A stretch of DNA of 39,270 bases from Hansschlegelia zhihuaiae (GTDB lineage: Bacteria > Pseudomonadota > Alphaproteobacteria > Rhizobiales > Methylopilaceae): positions 145,221-184,490 of the forward strand of contig NZ_RYFI01000003.1 of the NCBI RefSeq assembly GCF_004103825.1, given 5' to 3'. A model generated the notes under the pieces. That model saw nothing but the letters and a program-made list of their open reading frames with translations. It did no database searches and was not told where the DNA came from. Positions 6,667-39,270 of this stretch are shown piece after piece. Within the stretch, counting starts at the first letter, position 1. The number at the start of each line of letters is the position of its first letter. The translations under genes were made by a program, and so were the position numbers.

Positions 6667-7608
6667 ATGTCGTTGCGGATGATTGTTCTCGGTTCGGGCG
6701 CCGGCGGCGGCTTTCCCCAGTGGAATTGCCGCTGTCCGGTGTGCTCGCTCGCATGGGACGGCGATCCGCGGGTGAAGGCCCGCACACAGTCCTCGATCGC
6801 GGTCGAGACCGGCGACGGGCATTGGACGCTGTTCAACGCCTCTCCGGATCTCAGGTCGCAAATCCTCGCGACGCGCCAGATCCAGCCGACGGGGCTGCGC
6901 GAGACGCCGATCTCGGCGGTGGCGCTCACCAATGGCGACGTGGACCATGTCGACGGGCTGATCACGCTGCGCGAGCGGTCGCCCTTCACGGTGTACGCCA
7001 CCTCGCAGATTTCCGCGGTGCTCGACGCCAACCCGATCTTCGGCGTGCTCGCCAGAGACGTGGTGTCCCGCCGGACGGTGGAGCTCGGCAAGCCCTTCTC
7101 GATTGACGACGCGACGATCGAATTCTTCGGCGCGCCCGGCAAGGTGCCGCTCTATCTCGAGACCGAGAACCTGACGATCGGCGACACCTCCGGTGACACG
7201 GTGGGCGCGGTCGTGAAGAAAGACGGCAAGCGGCTGGTCTACATTCCCGGCTGCGCCTTCGTGAATGACGACGTGCTGGCCCGCGTCGAGGGCGCAGACC
7301 TTCTGCTGTTCGACGGCACGGTGTTTGAGGACGATGAGATGCAGCGCGCCGGCGTCGGCGTGAAGACCGGGCGGCGTATGGGTCACGTGCCGATCTCGGG
7401 CCCCGACGGCTCTTTGGACGCGTTCAAAGCTGTGAAAGTCAGCCGGAAGGTCTACATTCACATCAACAACACCAACCCCATCTTGATCGAGGGCTCGCCG
7501 GAGCGGCGGGCGGTCGAAGCGCGGGGCTGGGAGGTTTCAGAAGACGGGCTCGAGATCGCCGCGGGCGAGGCCGCGTCCGTCCACGACCGCGGGTCCACCG
7601 CGGCTTGA
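6667..7608 (+). CDS. pqqB: PQQ biosynthesis protein PqqB
   Basis: 313 aa metallo-beta-lactamase-fold protein. It begins with MIVLGSGAGGGFPQWNC at residues 5-21, then the zinc-binding Cys cluster CRCPVC, SPDLRSQI, and a modified MBL metal motif in NGDVDHVDGLITLRE. Later it has YIPGCAFVNDD, LLLFDGTVFEDDEM and the C-terminal YIHINNTNPIL. PqqB acts in the cytoplasm on the PqqE-linked peptide or its processed Glu-Tyr product and is reported as a hydroxylase adding oxygens to the tyrosine ring. It is second in the pqqABCDE cluster. The ATG at 6667 is chosen; the Met five codons in is a possible alternative since neither has a strong Shine-Dalgarno sequence. Confidence 0.97.
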   Translation: MSLRMIVLGSGAGGGFPQWNCRCPVCSLAWDGDPRVKARTQSSIAVETGDGHWTLFNASPDLRSQILATRQIQPTGLRETPISAVALTNGDVDHVDGLITLRERSPFTVYATSQISAVLDANPIFGVLARDVVSRRTVELGKPFSIDDATIEFFGAPGKVPLYLETENLTIGDTSGDTVGAVVKKDGKRLVYIPGCAFVNDDVLARVEGADLLLFDGTVFEDDEMQRAGVGVKTGRRMGHVPISGPDGSLDAFKAVKVSRKVYIHINNTNPILIEGSPERRAVEARGWEVSEDGLEIAAGEAASVHDRGSTAA

Positions 7609-7629
7609 AAGGTTGCGGAGGATTGCGCG

Positions 7630-8382
7630 ATGTCTGACCTGTTGGCGCCAGAAGCTCTCGAGCGCCGGCTCCGCGAGGTTGGCGAGACCCGCTACCACCA
7701 CCTCCATCCGTTCCAGCTTCGGCTCCAGTCCGGCGAGTGCTCGCGCGGCGAGGTCGAGGCTTGGGCGCTGAACCGCTACCTCTACCAGGCCTGCATCCCG
7801 CAGAAGGACGCCCACATCCTCGCCCGGATGGAGGACGCCGGAATGCGCCGCGAATGGCGCCAGCGCATCATCGACCATGACGGCGAGCGCGAGGGCGAGG
7901 GCGGCATCGCCAAATGGCTGAAGCTGACCGACGACCTCGGCCTCGACCGCGCGGACGTCATGTCCGGCCGCCTCGCGCTGCCGGCCACGAAGTTCGCGGT
8001 CAACGCCTATCTGTCCTTCGTGAAGGACCGCTCGCTGCTCGAGGCCATCGCCTCGTCGCTGACCGAGCTGTTCTCGCCGATGGTGATCAAGACCCGCGTC
8101 GCCGGGATGCTGTCGAACTACGACTACGTCACCCCGGAGACGCTCGCCTATTTCACGGCGCGCCCCGTGCAGGCCAAGCGCGACAGCGACTTCGCGCTCG
8201 CCTATGTGCTGGAAAACGCGAGGACGCCGGCCGAGCAGCAGGCGGCGATCGGCGCGCTCGAATTCAAGTGCTCAATGCTGTGGGCCATGCTGGACGCGCT
8301 TGAGCACGCCTACATCTACGCGCAGCCCTGGCCCGACGCGTTCAAGCCGGCGGACGCCGTCCGCCGGGAAGCCGCGGAATGA
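7630..8382 (+). CDS. pqqC: pyrroloquinoline-quinone synthase PqqC
   Basis: 250 aa, the usual length for stand-alone PqqC. The all-helical oxidase is recognised by RYHHLHPFQLRL near the N-terminus, LNRYLYQACIPQKDAHILARM, RIIDHDGE, FSPMVIKTRVAGML, and FTARPVQAKRDSDFALAYVL. It carries out the last step, ring closure and oxidation of AHQQ to PQQ using molecular oxygen without a metal or cofactor. GGAGG lies 8 nt before the ATG. The stop overlaps the pqqD ATG by 4 nt. In Methylobacterium pqqC and pqqD are one fused gene; here they are separate. Confidence 0.97.
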   Translation: MSDLLAPEALERRLREVGETRYHHLHPFQLRLQSGECSRGEVEAWALNRYLYQACIPQKDAHILARMEDAGMRREWRQRIIDHDGEREGEGGIAKWLKLTDDLGLDRADVMSGRLALPATKFAVNAYLSFVKDRSLLEAIASSLTELFSPMVIKTRVAGMLSNYDYVTPETLAYFTARPVQAKRDSDFALAYVLENARTPAEQQAAIGALEFKCSMLWAMLDALEHAYIYAQPWPDAFKPADAVRREAAE

Positions 8383-8660
8383 CCGACGTGCCGTCGGACG
8401 CCACGCCGAAGCTGCCGCGCGGCGTCAGGTTGCGGCGTGACGAGGTGCGGAACGAATGGCTGCTTCTCGCCCCGGAGCGCGTGCTGCGGCCTGACGCGAT
8501 CGCGGTGAAGGTGCTGGAGCTCTGCGACGGCGCGCGCACCGTGGACATGATCGTCGAAGAGCTCGCCTCGGCCTATGCGGCCCCACGCGAGCAGATCGAC
8601 GGCGACGTGAAGAAGATGCTGCGCGATCTGGCTGACAAGCGGGTGCTCGACCTGGCTTGA
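8379..8660 (+). CDS. pqqD: PqqA-binding chaperone PqqD
   Basis: 93 aa. The conserved core is [55 protein letters not shown] and the final helix [17 protein letters not shown]. This is the RiPP recognition element fold that binds the PqqA leader and presents it to the radical SAM enzyme PqqE. The ATGA overlap with pqqC indicates translational coupling. pqqE follows 59 nt downstream with its own strong ribosome-binding site. Confidence 0.96.
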
Positions 8661-8719
8661 GGCCGGGCGCCCGGCCAACGATCGCGGCGTTCGCGCGTTG
8701 CGCCGGAGAGGAGGACGAC

Positions 8720-9895
8720 ATGAACGACATGACCGTTCCCAATCCCTCGGAGGCGACCCGCGTCGCGCCGCCGGCGCCGCTCGGCATGCTGGCCGAGCTC
8801 ACGCACCGCTGCCCGCTCTCGTGCCCCTACTGCTCGAACCCCGTGGAGCTCGACAAGCGCTCCGGGGAGCTGGACACGGAGACTTGGAAGCGCGTGTTCT
8901 CCGAGGCCGCGGCGATGGGCGTGCTCCATCTCCACCTTTCCGGCGGCGAGCCGACGGCTCGCAAGGACATCGTCGAGCTGACCGCGCACGCCGTGAAGGT
9001 CGGGCTCTACACCAACCTCATCACCTCCGGGATCGGCGTCCAGCGCGAGAAGCTCGAGGAGCTTGCGAACGCCGGCCTCGACCACGTCCAGCTGTCGATC
9101 CAGGACGCCGAGAGCGATAACGCCGACAAGATCGCGGGCCTCAAGGGCGCGCACGAGAAGAAGCGGATCTTCGCGGGCTGGGTGCTCGAGCTCGGCATGC
9201 CGCTGACGATCAACGCCGTGATCCACCGCGGCAATGTCGACAACATCGAGGCGCTCGTGAACATGGCGCTGAATTTCGGCGCCCGGCGCGTCGAGATCGC
9301 GCATTCGCAATATTACGGCTGGGCGCTCGAAAACCGCAAAACCCTGATGCCGACGCGCGAGCAGGTCATGAAGGCGGCCGAGACGGTCGAGCGCCTGCGC
9401 GAGGAGCTTCAGGGCAAGCTCGTCATCGACGCCGTCGTCCCGGACTATTATGCGCGCCGTCCGAAGCCTTGCGTCGGCGGCTGGGGCCGTCAGTCGCTCA
9501 ACGTCACGCCGCAGGGCAAGGTGCTGCCCTGCCACGCCGCCGAAACCATCACGCATCTCGAATTCGACTACGTGACTGAGAAGAGCCTGAGCGAAATCTG
9601 GACCAACGGCTCGGCCTTCGAGGCTTATCGCGGCACGAGCTGGATGAAGGAGCCCTGCACCTCCTGTCCGCGCAAGGAGATCGACTTCGGCGGCTGCCGC
9701 TGCCAGGCGCTCGCGATCACGGGCGACCCGCGCAACGCCGACCCGGCCTGCTCGCTCTCGCCGTTCCACGCCAAGATCACGGCGCTCGCGATCAAGGATG
9801 CGCGGCCGACCGACGAGGGCTACGTCTATCGCCGCTTCGGAGCGAAGCCGGGACAGGCCCGTGTCGAGATCACGCGCAGCAACGCTCCGGCCTGA
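8720..9895 (+). CDS. pqqE: PqqA peptide cyclase PqqE (radical SAM)
   Basis: 391 aa. The radical SAM motif CxxxCxxC is Cys31, Cys35, Cys38 ([11 protein letters not shown]), followed by [12 protein letters not shown], the SAM-binding GGE. The C-terminal SPASM part supplies Cys ligands for auxiliary iron-sulfur clusters: [20 protein letters not shown] with a following Cys-His, then [18 protein letters not shown]. The enzyme forms the carbon-carbon bond between Glu17 and Tyr21 of PqqA. The ATG at 8720 is preceded 5 nt upstream by AGGAGG (8709-8714). The frame is open back to a TTG at 8657, but the Shine-Dalgarno position decides for 8720. It is last in the cluster; no pqqF or pqqG protease gene follows. 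Confidence 0.97.
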
Positions 9896-16646: not shown

Positions 16647-16675
16647 TTGCGGAACACATCTAGAACAGCTATGCA
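16647..16675 (+). promoter_or_regulatory. lexA promoter with SOS box (GAAC-N7-GAAC)
   Basis: GAAC at 16652-16655 and 16663-16666 are separated by 7 nt, the reverse complement of the alphaproteobacterial LexA site GTTC-N7-GTTC. It lies between a -35-like TTGCGG (16647-16652) and a -10-like TATGCA (16670-16675) spaced 17 nt apart, so bound LexA would block RNA polymerase. This is the expected autoregulation of lexA. Confidence 0.88.
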
Positions 16676-16713
16676 ATGTTCATGATTTGTTTTGGTCCGG
16701 CTCGGAGCCGCCA

Positions 16714-17415
16714 ATGTTGACCCGCAAGCAGTATGACCTGCTCCGCTTCATCCACGAGCGGCTGAAGGAGACCGGCGTGCCACCCTCCTTCGAGGAGATG
16801 AAGGACGCGCTGGGCCTGCAGTCCAAGTCCGGCATCCACCGTCTGATCATGGCGCTCGAGGAGCGCGGCTTCATTCGCCGGCTGCCGAACCGGGCGCGGG
16901 CGCTCGAGGTGGTGAAGCTGCCGGAGGCCGCGGCGCCGCCTGTCGCACGGCCCACGACCGGCCGCTTCGCCCCGAACGTGATCGAAGGCAGCCTCGGCCG
17001 CAGGCCGCCCGCTGGCGAGGACGAGGACGGCCGCTCGGTGTCGATTCCGGTGATGGGCCGCATTGCGGCCGGCGTGCCGATCGAGGCCATCCAGTCGCGC
17101 AGCCACACCATCTCGGTCTCGCCCGACATGCTGTCGAGCGGCGAGCACTTTGCGCTCGAAGTGCGCGGCGATTCGATGATTGAGGCCGGCATCCTGGACG
17201 GCGACCTCGTGCTGATCCGCAAGCAGGACACGGCCGACACCGGCGACATCGTGGTCGCGCTGGTCGACGACGAGGAGGCGACGCTGAAGCGCCTCAGGAA
17301 GCGCGGCGCCTCGATCGCGCTCGAGGCCGCGAACCCGGCTTACGAGACCCGCATCTTCGGGCCGGACCGCGTGGCGATCCAGGGCCGGCTGGTCGGTCTG
17401 ATCCGCCGCTACTGA
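16714..17415 (+). CDS. lexA: SOS repressor LexA
   Basis: 233 aa. The N-terminal winged helix begins [20 protein letters not shown] and has the recognition helix region [20 protein letters not shown]. The C-terminal peptidase domain has the self-cleavage site Ala119-Gly120 (GRIAAGVP), the nucleophile Ser154 in RGDSMIEAG and Lys192 in EATLKRL. RecA filaments trigger self-cleavage and release SOS genes. The start at 16714 gives the conserved N-terminus; the frame is open upstream, but that reading would run through the promoter. The last 7 nt overlap the 3' end of the convergent comEC gene. Confidence 0.98.
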
Positions 17416-34839: not shown

Positions 34840-37800
34840 TCACGCCGCCTCGACCGCGAGGACCCCCGGCACGGTCTTCAGCGCTCCCGCGACCTGCGGC
34901 GAGACGCGGTAGCGGCCGGGCAGCCGGATCTCGACCTCGGTCCCGGCGTCGAGCAACATGACGACCGACACCTCGCCGTCGCCGCTCTCGAGGCGGCGCG
35001 TCAGCGCGTCGAACGGCTCGGGGCTGCGCATGAAGACCCGCACCGCCTTCTGGCGCCGCTCCGCCTCGCGGTCGAGCGCCTCAACGCTCTCGATCCGCAC
35101 CCGGACCTCGTCGCCATCGAGCGCCGCCGACACCGAGACGATGACGGGCGTGTTGGGCTCCAGCAGGTCCCGATACTGCGAAAGCCCTTCCGAGAAGATC
35201 ACCGCCTCGTAATGGCCTGTGGGGTCCGACAGGGTGACGATCCCCATGCGGTTGCCGGTCTTGGTCTTGCGCTCCTGGCGCGACAGCACGGTGGCGGCGA
35301 GCCGCCCGCCGGTGGCGCCGGCCTTCACGGCCGCCGCGAACTCGCCGTAGCGACGGAGCCTCATCCGCTCGAGCAGCGGCCCGTAATCGTCGAGCGGATG
35401 GCCGGACAGGAAGAAGCCGACGGCCTCATATTCGCGCTTCAGCCGCTCGCCGGCGGTCCACGGCTCGTGAGGCTGCGGGCGGATCGGCTCCTCGGCCGCG
35501 CCGAAGAAGTCGTTCTGGCCGCTCGCCTCGCCGTCGCGGGTGCGCGACGCGATCGCCATCACGGCCTCGACGCTCGCGAGCGCCCGGGCGCGATCGTCCA
35601 CCAGCGCGTCGAGCGCGCCCGCCTGGACCAGGCTTTCGAGCGCGCGCTTCGGCAGCGCCTTGGAGTCGAGGCGGCGCGCGAAATCCGCGAGGTCGGCGAA
35701 CGGCCTTGCGCGCCGCTCCGCCACCAGCTTCTCGACCGCCGACCCGCCGACGCCCTTGAGCGCAGCGAGCGCATAGAGAATCTCGCCCTCCGCCACGTCG
35801 AAGGCGACGTCCGAACGGTTCACGCAGGGCGGCTTCACCGTGATCCCGAGCCTCACCGCCTCCTGGCGGAATTCGGCGAGCTTGTCGGTCGAGCCCATGT
35901 CGAGCGTCATCGACGCGGCCATGAACTCTACAGGGTGGTTCGCCTTGAGATAGGCGGTCTGGTAGGCGACCAGCGCATAGGCCGCGGCGTGGCTCTTGTT
36001 GAAGCCGTAGTCGGCGAACTTCGCCAGCAGGTCGAAGATCGTCGAGGCGTCGGACTTGCCGATGCCGCGCTCGACCGCGCCGGACACGAAGCGCTCGCGC
36101 TGCGCGTCCATCTCGGAGCGGATCTTCTTGCCCATCGCGCGGCGCAGCATGTCGGCCTCGCCGAGCGTGTAGCCGGCGAGCGACTGGGCGGTCTGCATCA
36201 CCTGCTCCTGGTAGATGATGACCCCGAAGGTCTCTCCCAGGATCGGCTCGAGCTTGGGATGCGGATAGTCGGGCTTCTCCTGGCCGTGCTTTCGCGCGCA
36301 ATAGGTCGGGATGTTGGCCATCGGGCCCGGCCGGTAGAGCGCGACCAGCGCGATGATGTCCTCGAAGCGGTCCGGCTTCATGTCAGCGAGCGCGCGCCGC
36401 ATGCCGGCGCTTTCCAGCTGGAACACCCCGACGGTCTCGCCGCGCGACAGCATCGCGAAGGTCGCCGCGTCGTCGATCGGGATCTTCTCAAGGTCGAGCT
36501 CGATACCCCGGCGCTTGAGCAGCGCGACCGCCGTGGTCAGCGTCGTCAGCGTCTTCAGCCCGAGGAAATCGAACTTCACGAGACCGGCGGGCTCGACCCA
36601 TTTCATGTTGAACTGGGTGACGGGCATGTCGGAGCGCGGGTCGCGATAGAGCGGCACGAGCTCGGAGAGCGGCCGGTCGCCGATCACGATGCCGGCCGCG
36701 TGGGTCGAGGCGTGGCGATAAAGCCCCTCGAGCTTGAGCGCGATGTCGAGCATCCGCCCGACGGTCGGATCGGCGGCGCGCGCCTCGGCGAGCTTCGGCT
36801 CGTCGACCACCGCCTGCTTCAGCGTGACGGGATTGGCCGGGTTCTGCGGCACGAGCTTGCAGAGCTTGTCGACCTGCCCATAGGGCATCTCCAGCACGCG
36901 CCCGACGTCCCGCATGACGCCGCGCGCCTGCAGCGTGCCGAAGGTGATGATCTGCGCGACCCGGTCGTGGCCGTAGCGGTCCTGGACGTAGCGGATCACC
37001 TCCTCGCGCCGGTCCTGGCAGAAGTCGATGTCGAAGTCCGGCATCGAGACGCGCTCGGGATTGAGGAAGCGCTCGAACAGCAGGCCGAAGCGCAGCGGAT
37101 CGAGATCGGTGATGGTGAGCGACCAGGCGACCAACGATCCCGCGCCCGACCCGCGGCCCGGACCCACGGGAATCCCCTGCGCCTTCGCCCATTTGATGAA
37201 GTCGGAGACGATCAGGAAGTAGCCCGGGAATTTCATTCCCTCGATGACGCCGAGCTCGAATTCGAGCCGCTTGTCATAGACCTCGCGCTCGAGCCCCGGC
37301 GCCGTGCCGTGGCTTACGAGGCGGGCCTCGAGCCCGGCGAGCGCCTGCCGGCGGAGCTCCGCGGCCTCGTCCTCGCCGGCCGTGAAGCGCGGCAGGATGG
37401 GCTTCATGGTGCGCGGCCGGTAGGCCGAGCGGCGCGCGATCTCGAGCGTGCTGGCGAGCGCCTCGGGAAGGTCGGCGAACAGAGCCGCCATCTCGGCGCG
37501 GGTCTTGAAGCCGTGCTCGGGCGACATCTGTCGCCGCTCGGTCTCCCCCAGGAACCGTCCCTCGGCGAGGCAGATCAGCGCGTCGTGGGCCTCGTGGTCG
37601 GACCGTTCGGCGAAGCGGGCGCCGTTGGTGGCGACGATCGGCAGGCCGCGCGCATAGGCGAGCTCGAGCAGCGCGCCCTCGACGGCCCGTTCTCCCGGAA
37701 GATTGTGGCGCTGCAGCTCGACATAGAACGCGTCGCCATAGAGCGCCGACAGACGGGCGAGCCTCGCCGCCGCTACGTCGTCAGCGCCTTCGGACAGCGC

Positions 37801-38268
37801 GCGGTCGATCGGCCCCTCGGGACCGCCCGTCAGCGCCACGAGGCCGCCACGATGCCGTTCGAGCAGTTCGAGCCCGACATGCGGAGGACCCTCGCCCTCC
37901 CCGTCGAGGAAGGCGCGGCTCGAAAGCGCCATCAGGTTCCGATAGCCGAGCTCGTCGCGCGCCAGGAGCACGATCGCGGGCGGCCGCTCGTCCTTGGCCT
38001 GCCGCCCGGCGCGCTGCTCGCGATCCTGGAAATCGACCGCCAGCGTCAGCCCTGCGATCGGCTGCACGCCGGCGCCGGCGAGCTTCTCCGAGAACTCCAA
38101 CGCCCCGAATAGATTGTCGTCGGTGAGCGCGACCGCCGGAGCATGGTCGGCCTTCGCGAGCGCCGCGATGCGGGCGATGGTCAGCGCGCCCTCGAGCAGG
38201 GAGAAGGACGAGCGCACATTGAGGTGCACGAAGCCCGGATCGCTCTTCAGCCCGCTCGCCATGTCCAC
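34840..38268 (-). CDS. dnaE: DNA polymerase III subunit alpha (replicative DnaE1)
   Basis: 1142 aa. N-terminal PHP domain (FVHLNVRSSFSLLEGALTIA) in which both His of the metal HxH motif are replaced (Asn17, Arg19), so it has no expected nuclease activity. The polymerase domain has GPGRGSGAGSLVAWSLTITD, catalytic Asp411 and Asp413 in MPDFDIDFCQDRREEVI, and Asp567 in VKFDFLGLKTL. Then come FADYGFNKSHAAAYALVAYQ and a C-terminal OB-fold (RMGIVTLSDPTGHYEAVIFS). It is the replicative polymerase, not the error-prone DnaE2. The start is GTG at 38268 with GGAGG six nt upstream; an ATG two codons in lacks such spacing. The small SOS-box ORF lies 86 bp upstream on the same strand. Confidence 0.97.
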   Translation of the reverse strand: MDMASGLKSDPGFVHLNVRSSFSLLEGALTIARIAALAKADHAPAVALTDDNLFGALEFSEKLAGAGVQPIAGLTLAVDFQDREQRAGRQAKDERPPAIVLLARDELGYRNLMALSSRAFLDGEGEGPPHVGLELLERHRGGLVALTGGPEGPIDRALSEGADDVAAARLARLSALYGDAFYVELQRHNLPGERAVEGALLELAYARGLPIVATNGARFAERSDHEAHDALICLAEGRFLGETERRQMSPEHGFKTRAEMAALFADLPEALASTLEIARRSAYRPRTMKPILPRFTAGEDEAAELRRQALAGLEARLVSHGTAPGLEREVYDKRLEFELGVIEGMKFPGYFLIVSDFIKWAKAQGIPVGPGRGSGAGSLVAWSLTITDLDPLRFGLLFERFLNPERVSMPDFDIDFCQDRREEVIRYVQDRYGHDRVAQIITFGTLQARGVMRDVGRVLEMPYGQVDKLCKLVPQNPANPVTLKQAVVDEPKLAEARAADPTVGRMLDIALKLEGLYRHASTHAAGIVIGDRPLSELVPLYRDPRSDMPVTQFNMKWVEPAGLVKFDFLGLKTLTTLTTAVALLKRRGIELDLEKIPIDDAATFAMLSRGETVGVFQLESAGMRRALADMKPDRFEDIIALVALYRPGPMANIPTYCARKHGQEKPDYPHPKLEPILGETFGVIIYQEQVMQTAQSLAGYTLGEADMLRRAMGKKIRSEMDAQRERFVSGAVERGIGKSDASTIFDLLAKFADYGFNKSHAAAYALVAYQTAYLKANHPVEFMAASMTLDMGSTDKLAEFRQEAVRLGITVKPPCVNRSDVAFDVAEGEILYALAALKGVGGSAVEKLVAERRARPFADLADFARRLDSKALPKRALESLVQAGALDALVDDRARALASVEAVMAIASRTRDGEASGQNDFFGAAEEPIRPQPHEPWTAGERLKREYEAVGFFLSGHPLDDYGPLLERMRLRRYGEFAAAVKAGATGGRLAATVLSRQERKTKTGNRMGIVTLSDPTGHYEAVIFSEGLSQYRDLLEPNTPVIVSVSAALDGDEVRVRIESVEALDREAERRQKAVRVFMRSPEPFDALTRRLESGDGEVSVVMLLDAGTEVEIRLPGRYRVSPQVAGALKTVPGVLAVEAA

Positions 38269-38354
38269 GCCGTTCCTCCGCCCTGTTCCGCGACCTTAAG
38301 GGCGCCGCCCGCGATCCCGCGGCGCCTTCCTGGCGCGCTCCACAGGAAACAGCC

Positions 38355-38465
38355 TCAAACGTTCATCATCACGTCGGCCCAGAGCGACAGCGCGCCGACG
38401 AAAACCGCGACCGAGACGAGTTCGAGACAACCGCAGGCCCACGCCTTGATACGGGCGACATCCAT
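38355..38465 (-). CDS. predicted SOS-regulated small membrane protein, 36 aa
   Basis: 36 codons: MDVARIKAWACGCLELVSVA, then VFVGALSLWADVMMNV. A short basic N-terminus and a single hydrophobic segment (about residues 14-29) suggest an inner-membrane protein; two Cys (11 and 13) lie at its edge. The ATG at 38465 has GGAG six nt upstream (minus strand), which favours it over an in-frame ATG at 38477 that has no ribosome-binding site. The upstream promoter is overlapped by a perfect SOS box. I do not recognise the sequence. Caulobacter SidA, a 29-aa SOS-induced membrane inhibitor of cell division, has a similar architecture; homology is not claimed. The space from 38269 to 38589 holds no other gene. 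Confidence 0.62.
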   Translation of the reverse strand: MDVARIKAWACGCLELVSVAVFVGALSLWADVMMNV

Positions 38466-38490
38466 GATGATCTCCATATGAACCCGTTAT

Positions 38491-38527
38491 GTTCTTTTAA
38501 TGTTCTCCATGCCTAAAGGGCCGTCAA
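38491..38527 (-). promoter_or_regulatory. SOS-type promoter of the 36-aa ORF (GTTC-N7-GTTC)
   Basis: GTTC at 38491-38494 and 38502-38505 (plus strand) are spaced by 7 nt, the alphaproteobacterial LexA site. Read on the minus strand, TTGACG (38527-38522) and AACATT (38504-38499) are spaced by 17 nt and form a -35/-10 pair whose -10 lies inside the box. Transcription from about 38491 would give a 26-nt leader. A further GAAC at 38480-38483 lies 7 nt from the nearer half-site. Confidence 0.75.
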
Positions 38528-38589
38528 GCGGATTCTCCCCGCGCCGCGGTCTGCGGCTCCGGAAGGTGAAGAAAGTCTGAAACTTGGGC

Positions 38590-39270
38590 TCAGGCGTCGA
38601 CCAGCACGCCGTCGCGGAGCGTGATCCGCCGGTCGAGCGTCGCCGCGAGATCGAGATTGTGGGTCGCGACGATCGCCGCGAGGCCCGAGGCGCGCGCGAG
38701 CGTGGTCAGCGTCTGGAAGACATGCGCCGAGGTCGTCGGGTCGAGATTGCCGGTCGGCTCGTCGGCGAGCAGGAGCCTCGGGGCGTTGGCGACCGCGCGG
38801 GCGATGGCGACGCGCTGCTGCTCGCCGCCGGAGAGCTCGGCGGGCCTGTGCGACAGCCGCGCGCCGAGGCCGAGATAGGTGAGCAGCTCGGCCGCCCGTT
38901 CGCGGGCCTCGGCCTTGGCGAGGCCGCGGATGATCTGCGGCATCACGACATTCTCGAGCGCGGAGAATTCAGGCAAGAGATGGTGGAACTGGTAGACGAA
39001 GCCGACCCGGCCGCGCCGGATCGCAGTTCGGGCGTCGTCGCCGAGGCCGACGGTGGGCCGGCCGTCGAGCCAGACCTCGCCGCCGTCCGGTCGCTCCAGC
39101 AACCCGGCGACATGCAGCAGCGTCGACTTGCCGGCGCCCGAGGGCGCGATCAGCGCCACCACCTCGCCCGCCTCGACAGTCGCCGAGGCGCCGTTGAGGA
39201 CGTCGACCGAGGCGTCGCCCTGCCGGTAACGACGCACGACGTTGTCGAGCACGAGGAGCGGCGGGGGGGC
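38590..39270 (-). CDS. lolD: lipoprotein-releasing ABC transporter ATP-binding protein LolD, 5' end cut by window edge
   Basis: 227 codons to the edge of the window, in frame with no start inside, so the N-terminus is outside. Walker A is [17 protein letters not shown], the Q-loop region [20 protein letters not shown] is typical of LolD, the ABC signature is [16 protein letters not shown], and Walker B is [13 protein letters not shown], followed by the His switch VATHNLD. LolD energises LolC/LolE to extract outer-membrane lipoproteins from the inner membrane; BamE in this window would be a client. The lolC-like permease gene probably lies just beyond the edge. Confidence 0.93.

Follow-up and report, generated by a model that had tools for sequence, protein, structure and literature searches.

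The window analysed here is a 39,270 nt stretch of a Hansschlegelia zhihuaiae contig (NZ_RYFI01000003.1, positions 145,221 to 184,490), which carries a short ORF between a lolD-like gene and dnaE. The features of this locus, together with the lexA gene found elsewhere in the window, are as follows (positions are those of the window).

34840..38262, minus strand: dnaE (DnaE1, replicative polymerase III alpha), the downstream neighbour; NCBIfam NF004226, 1455 bits against a cut-off of 1002
38339..38344, minus strand: TGTGGA, part of a CTGTGGA element conserved in the gap separating dnaE from the small ORF, from the count over genus loci
38355..38465, minus strand: ORF for a 36-aa one-helix membrane protein, proposed sidA ortholog; from sequence, genus conservation, codon constraint, profile and AlphaFold2
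38472..38475, minus strand: Shine-Dalgarno sequence GGAG, spaced 6 nt from the 36-aa start, read from the sequence
38491..38505, minus strand: LexA box GAACATTAAAAGAAC, GTTC-N7-GTTC on the plus strand; perfect match, conserved in the genus
38522..38527, minus strand: -35 element TTGACG, from the genus alignment
38590..39252, minus strand: lolD-like ABC ATPase gene, the upstream neighbour; best NCBIfam match TIGR02211 LolD, 248.5 bits, under the cut-off of 307.75
16714..17415, plus strand: lexA, the presumed repressor; TIGR00498, 186 bits against a cut-off of 111

An alternative start for dnaE lies at 38268. The window also holds, at 6667-9895, a run of ORFs that we take to read like PQQ biosynthesis genes.

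The small ORF and its upstream region

Read from its first ATG, the small ORF comprises 40 codons (38477-38355, minus strand), the fifth of which is an ATG at 38465. The latter start, giving the 36-residue product MDVARIKAWACGCLELVSVAVFVGALSLWADVMMNV, is the likely one and is favoured over the 40-aa start at 38477, because GGAG lies 6 nt before it and most relatives in the genus begin there. The initial annotation of this DNA had proposed a ribosome-binding site at normal spacing and a short ORF with one hydrophobic segment, and both proposals hold: the hydrophobic 17-mer of the 36-aa protein has a mean of 2.1, and the AlphaFold2 model is a single helix covering residues 2-35 with a mean pLDDT of 92.9. 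When eight small proteins of this kind were compared with Pfam-A and NCBIfam, no matches were returned at E values up to 10.

The predicted LexA box upstream of the ORF, seen on the coding strand as a perfect GAAC-N7-GAAC, is as originally described and is kept in the genus. It was further claimed that a -35/-10 promoter is present, with the -10 overlapping the box. As for the -35 part of this claim, TTGAC is found ahead of the box at all 13 genus loci as read from the alignment; the -10 element at 17 nt spacing is AACATT, which lies inside the LexA box and is weak, and a sigma-70 scan of 38260-38620 returned neither promoter-like nor terminator-like sites. Taken by itself, the LexA box is not significantly above chance in the 39-kb window, where two perfect boxes were found against 0.95 expected from shuffles. 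The other perfect box, at 16652-16666, precedes lexA, and 11 nt beyond it is a second box with one mismatch (window 16652-16692).

Conservation and coding constraint

A single-sequence search at E<=1 gave matches in 20 of 61 genomes, comprising 13/13 in the genus and 7/48 outside. Four of the outside matches were inspected, and two are situated before dnaE (L016 and L021) and two elsewhere (L014 and L018). The initial annotation had suggested that relatives be searched for an ORF conserved between lolD and dnaE. A box carrying no more than one mismatch and a one-helix ORF precede dnaE at 13/13 genus loci, versus 0.00 expected from dinucleotide shuffles. At the conserved position nine of the boxes are exact and four have one mismatch; the exact box of locus L010 is off the conserved place, giving ten genus loci with an exact box anywhere.

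Across a 28-codon core, pN/pS was 0.58 versus a column-shuffle mean of 1.01, and none of 500 shuffles was as low, which indicates that the protein is being kept. In the six closest genus pairs pS was 0.22-0.46 and pN 0.06-0.13. A lack of coding constraint, which had been named as grounds for abandoning the candidate, is thus the opposite of what is seen. Conservation of the ORF, the box and their place in the genus, together with the codon constraint and not the box alone, confirms that an SOS-type small ORF and its box before dnaE are real and not a product of chance.

A separate sequence is conserved in the gap between the ORF and dnaE. TGTGGA occurs at 11/13 genus loci in the 250 nt preceding the estimated dnaE start, versus 0.6 expected from base composition, and at these 11 loci CTGTGGA is placed 66-79 nt before that start. 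Part of the element presumably resembles a DnaA-type site, and its conserved placement hints that it is perhaps a separate control of dnaE.

Occurrence in the order and class

In order to follow the ORF beyond the genus, dnaE was used as an anchor. A search with the DnaE N-terminus identified the gene in 243/249 genomes of the order (E<=1e-20) and 281/290 genomes of the class (E<=1e-12), from which 40 loci spread over the families of the order and 40 class loci outside the order were sampled. A locus was scored as positive if dnaE was preceded by a one-helix ORF of 25-60 aa and by a LexA box that was exact or had one mismatch. Within the order 22/40 loci fit this rule (20 with an exact box; the shuffle expectation for the rule with one mismatch allowed was 0.05), a count that includes one very AT-rich locus that may be chance (L071) and one where the match is a piece of a longer ORF (L063). 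Outside the order the rule was fitted by 11/40 class loci, all 11 with an exact box, with a shuffle expectation of 0.20 when one mismatch is allowed. At L097 the top-scoring frame is not the best candidate, and another frame there fits the profile built for the order (see below). Occurrence can differ within a family, as in f42, where two of four loci are positive (L047 and L084) and two negative (L085 and L091).

The DnaE search in the order itself supplied 30 loci, 9 of the genus and 21 others that are nearest in DnaE and so form an uneven sample. Among these 21, an exact box and a one-helix ORF were found at 18; at L055 the ORF is present but an exact box is not, and both are absent from L036 and L054.

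Two other kinds of locus were encountered in the order. At L062 and L075 exact LexA boxes stand before dnaE but are not followed by a small one-helix ORF; these boxes are perhaps relics of a lost gene. At L063 (genome G027) and L094 (genome G221) a LexA box is followed by N-terminally extended ORFs, of 111 aa and 88 aa respectively, that end in a SidA-like helix. The second of these had been scored as a miss, its 88-aa ORF having a similar C-terminal helix, and the extended ORFs could possibly be larger SidA variants. A 35-protein profile was also searched in 16 genomes, most of which lack the usual ORF before dnaE. Six gave matches at E<=0.5, the best being G027, where the match is the extended form in the usual location before dnaE.

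The corresponding ORF in Caulobacter

The initial annotation had likened the ORF in size and layout to SidA, which is described as a 29-aa, LexA-controlled inner-membrane inhibitor that acts on FtsW (PMC4211646). To bring Caulobacter into the comparison, 80 named loci were obtained with Caulobacter MreB as bait; dnaE was sought in 28 of those genomes and found in 28/28. The likeness proved apt: Caulobacter vibrioides and C. hibisci have an identical 29-aa ORF at the same place before dnaE, ending about 20 nt before the first in-frame dnaE ATG; upstream of it in C. vibrioides are two boxes, each with one mismatch. Across the named loci 15/28 are positive for box and ORF, 9 with an exact box, where 0.15 are expected. 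A similar ORF that falls below the cut-offs is found at three Brevundimonas loci (L241, L243 and L245) and at L246, and nine loci are negative for box and ORF before dnaE (Thalassospira, Stella, Nitrospirillum, Niveispirillum, Ferrovibrio, BAL199, Telmatospirillum, Oceanibaculum and Rhodospirillaceae M30B52).

The C. vibrioides ORF is taken as SidA on the basis of its length, position and boxes. Published locus tags are consistent with this assignment. The sidA gene is CCNA_02004 (PMC10769358); dnaE, recN and uvrA are CC1926, CC1983 and CC2590 (PMC1839093), and in the other tag series recN and uvrA are ccna_02062 and ccna_02673 (PMC12700426). The two series are thus offset by 79 at recN and by 83 at uvrA, which places CCNA_02004 no more than one or two tags away from dnaE. 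We take sidA to be CC1927. The initial annotation had also called the ORF undescribed and outside the known SOS genes. That description is wrong or at least incomplete, since sidA of Caulobacter is among the known targets of LexA (PMC4211646, PMC12700426) and a matching ORF precedes C. vibrioides dnaE.

Homology between the small ORFs

Next, it was asked how far the proteins themselves are related. A profile of 13 genus proteins, searched against 3506 stop-to-stop frames from other genera of the order, gave 16 frames at E<=1, of which 15 were the ORF before dnaE. When the 34 order proteins were scored against this profile, 20 scored above 95% of their own shuffles and 16 above all 100. With the 40 class loci the genus profile gave three frames, one being the ORF before dnaE, and with the 28 named loci it gave no frame at E<=1. 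A direct comparison of the genus profile with a Caulobacteraceae profile by hhalign was likewise weak (P = 0.014, probability 3%, 13 columns), with P = 0.46 for a control with an FtsW helix.

A profile for the order was then assembled from 34 order and 7 genus proteins, with no Caulobacterales included. Searched against 2220 frames of the 28 named loci, it placed the ORF before dnaE at ranks 1 to 16, with C. vibrioides tenth; among 1711 class frames the ORF before dnaE took ranks 1 to 8, and three of the 11 box-positive class loci (L098, L115 and L128) were missed. The C. vibrioides ORF scored 13.1 bits, and the highest score among 200 shuffles was 11.6. Of the 11 Caulobacteraceae ORFs in an alignment, nine were tried in this manner; eight outscored all of their shuffles, and the ninth was equalled or beaten by 2/200. 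As judged from these profile scores, homology to the Caulobacter ORF is reached by way of relatives in the order rather than directly from the window.

In a 35-sequence alignment the window protein is 34% identical to the C. vibrioides ORF. The core highlighted in the initial annotation, AWACGCLELVSVAVF, is conserved in part: the sole invariant residue is an F, mostly followed by W, and the rest of the core is not kept throughout. The core W is replaced in several Caulobacteraceae, and an acidic residue is shifted in the genus of the window.

Because C. vibrioides has a 29-aa ORF in the equivalent position before dnaE, and this ORF scores with the order profile above 200/200 shuffles, the 36-aa ORF is most likely an ortholog of SidA, which would make it the same gene rather than a look-alike.

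Discussion

The present analysis establishes the ORF, the box, the constraint acting at the protein level, the conserved place before dnaE and, by way of order relatives, the homology to the ORF of C. vibrioides. The reading we prefer, with a probability of roughly 0.8, is that the ORF represents sidA in this bacterium and would encode a LexA-silenced, damage-released membrane helix that holds FtsW inactive and so delays constriction. By this account LexA bound at the box would silence the candidate sidA and, as in known SOS biology, DNA damage would lead to RecA-stimulated cleavage of LexA, freeing the promoter. The 36-residue helix would then enter the inner membrane, with its N-terminus probably inside as judged from its Arg/Lys residues. 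By analogy with Caulobacter SidA, it would bind the septal glycosyltransferase FtsW, or the FtsW/FtsI/FtsN complex, and keep the enzyme inactive, and constriction would wait until repair is finished. A model from 2026 places the contact of SidA at FtsW TM7, which its authors state is not of high confidence (PMC13396833).

The putative target is present in the window genome (G000), which gives a TIGR02614 FtsW match over the cut-off. Over 395 aligned columns this FtsW shares 46% identity with the C. vibrioides protein. At E<=0.001 one FtsW/RodA-type match each was obtained in G000 and in G029, G051 and G057 of its order, versus two each in four named genomes (two Caulobacter, Maricaulis and Parvibaculum), so that the wall machinery may differ. 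This difference, together with the low identity to the C. vibrioides ORF, would fit a SidA homolog that has shifted to a different membrane target, such as another septal or polar wall enzyme, a possibility that we nevertheless consider unlikely. Besides the presence of FtsW, the retention in the window FtsW of all three residues equivalent to Caulobacter A31, F145 and A246, the suppressor sites for SidA and DidA, would speak weakly against such a drift; yet in six non-Caulobacter FtsW sequences these equivalents are kept in 2, 5 and 4, respectively, and since they vary in relatives having the small ORF no argument is drawn from them.

A second possibility, distinctly unlikely in our estimation, is an SOS membrane peptide of the TisB/DinQ kind that would depolarise the membrane or form pores in it and slow growth with no specific divisome target. 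Size, a single helix and LexA control would fit such a peptide equally well, and DinQ of Escherichia coli is a single-transmembrane SOS peptide (PMC3567139). Against it stand the homology and the shared place with the C. vibrioides ORF that is taken as SidA. TisB belongs with an antisense RNA, and a search of both strands of 38200-38700 against Rfam gave no family at E up to 1, a search that would not detect an antisense RNA belonging to a new family.

It has also to be considered that the ORF may be a leader bringing dnaE under SOS control, the peptide itself being of little weight. The two genes are on the same strand with a gap of 86-92 nt in the window (about 20 nt in C. vibrioides), and with no terminator-like site between them read-through is possible. 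The protein-level constraint and the conserved peptide core argue against a mere leader, as do a gap to dnaE that varies widely among loci and the separate element conserved within it; a weaker indication is that dnaE has 0 occurrences in the main text of a Caulobacter SOS study (PMC12700426). This explanation is accordingly very improbable. Finally, a chance ORF behind a chance box, although the box alone does not exceed expectation, is considered refuted by the conservation of ORF, box and place and by the coding constraint.

If the preferred reading, a sidA gene acting on FtsW, is extended to the other loci, SidA may be an old alphaproteobacterial checkpoint locked to dnaE that brakes FtsW after damage even where no RodA is apparent, that has been extended in some families (the 111-aa and 88-aa forms), and that ties the control of division after damage to the supply of replicative polymerase. 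We put this forward tentatively, as an idea with the odds somewhat against it. Should the same tiny gene serve much of the Alphaproteobacteria, the FtsW damage checkpoint would be a class-wide feature. Annotation can miss such a gene, as its ORF has only some 25-40 codons and no Pfam-A or NCBIfam model matches it. The natural SidA variants would provide a ready list for mapping the FtsW contact. Members of the window's order include polar growers, and one could then ask how damage halts division in them. In the literature searched there was no bacterial account of SidA homologs or orthologs, or of a dnaE-anchored spread, beyond Caulobacter, and what was returned for SidA homologs concerned, by title, fungal iron or siderophores, fungal genomes and Streptomyces desferrioxamine; the founding SidA study and comparative LexA studies lay outside this scope, and an earlier mention is therefore possible.

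Several known systems invite comparison. SidA is presented as the Caulobacter counterpart of SulA in the literature examined. Like the proposed product, SulA is an SOS division inhibitor; according to PMC4211646, however, it targets FtsZ and is not widely conserved beyond the gamma-proteobacteria. TisB and DinQ of E. coli, compared here by description, are likewise tiny SOS-induced membrane peptides, but act on the membrane. YneA, SosA and ChiZ, also compared by description, are small membrane proteins, induced by damage, that block division at a late stage and are predicted, as is SidA, to contact FtsW TM7, whereas they occur in other phyla and carry a LysM domain or a longer extended part (PMC13396833). 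DidA of Caulobacter, likened by description, is a small one-helix damage-induced inhibitor of FtsW/I/N, but is reported as a 71-aa, FtsN-binding protein that is not under LexA (PMC4211646). Closest is SidA of Caulobacter crescentus, which shares with the window ORF a short single transmembrane helix, a LexA-type box, the position directly before dnaE and a homologous core. The two differ in that the window ORF has 36 aa and a perfect box and belongs to another alphaproteobacterial order, whereas the Caulobacter ORF has 29 aa and, in C. vibrioides, two one-mismatch boxes.
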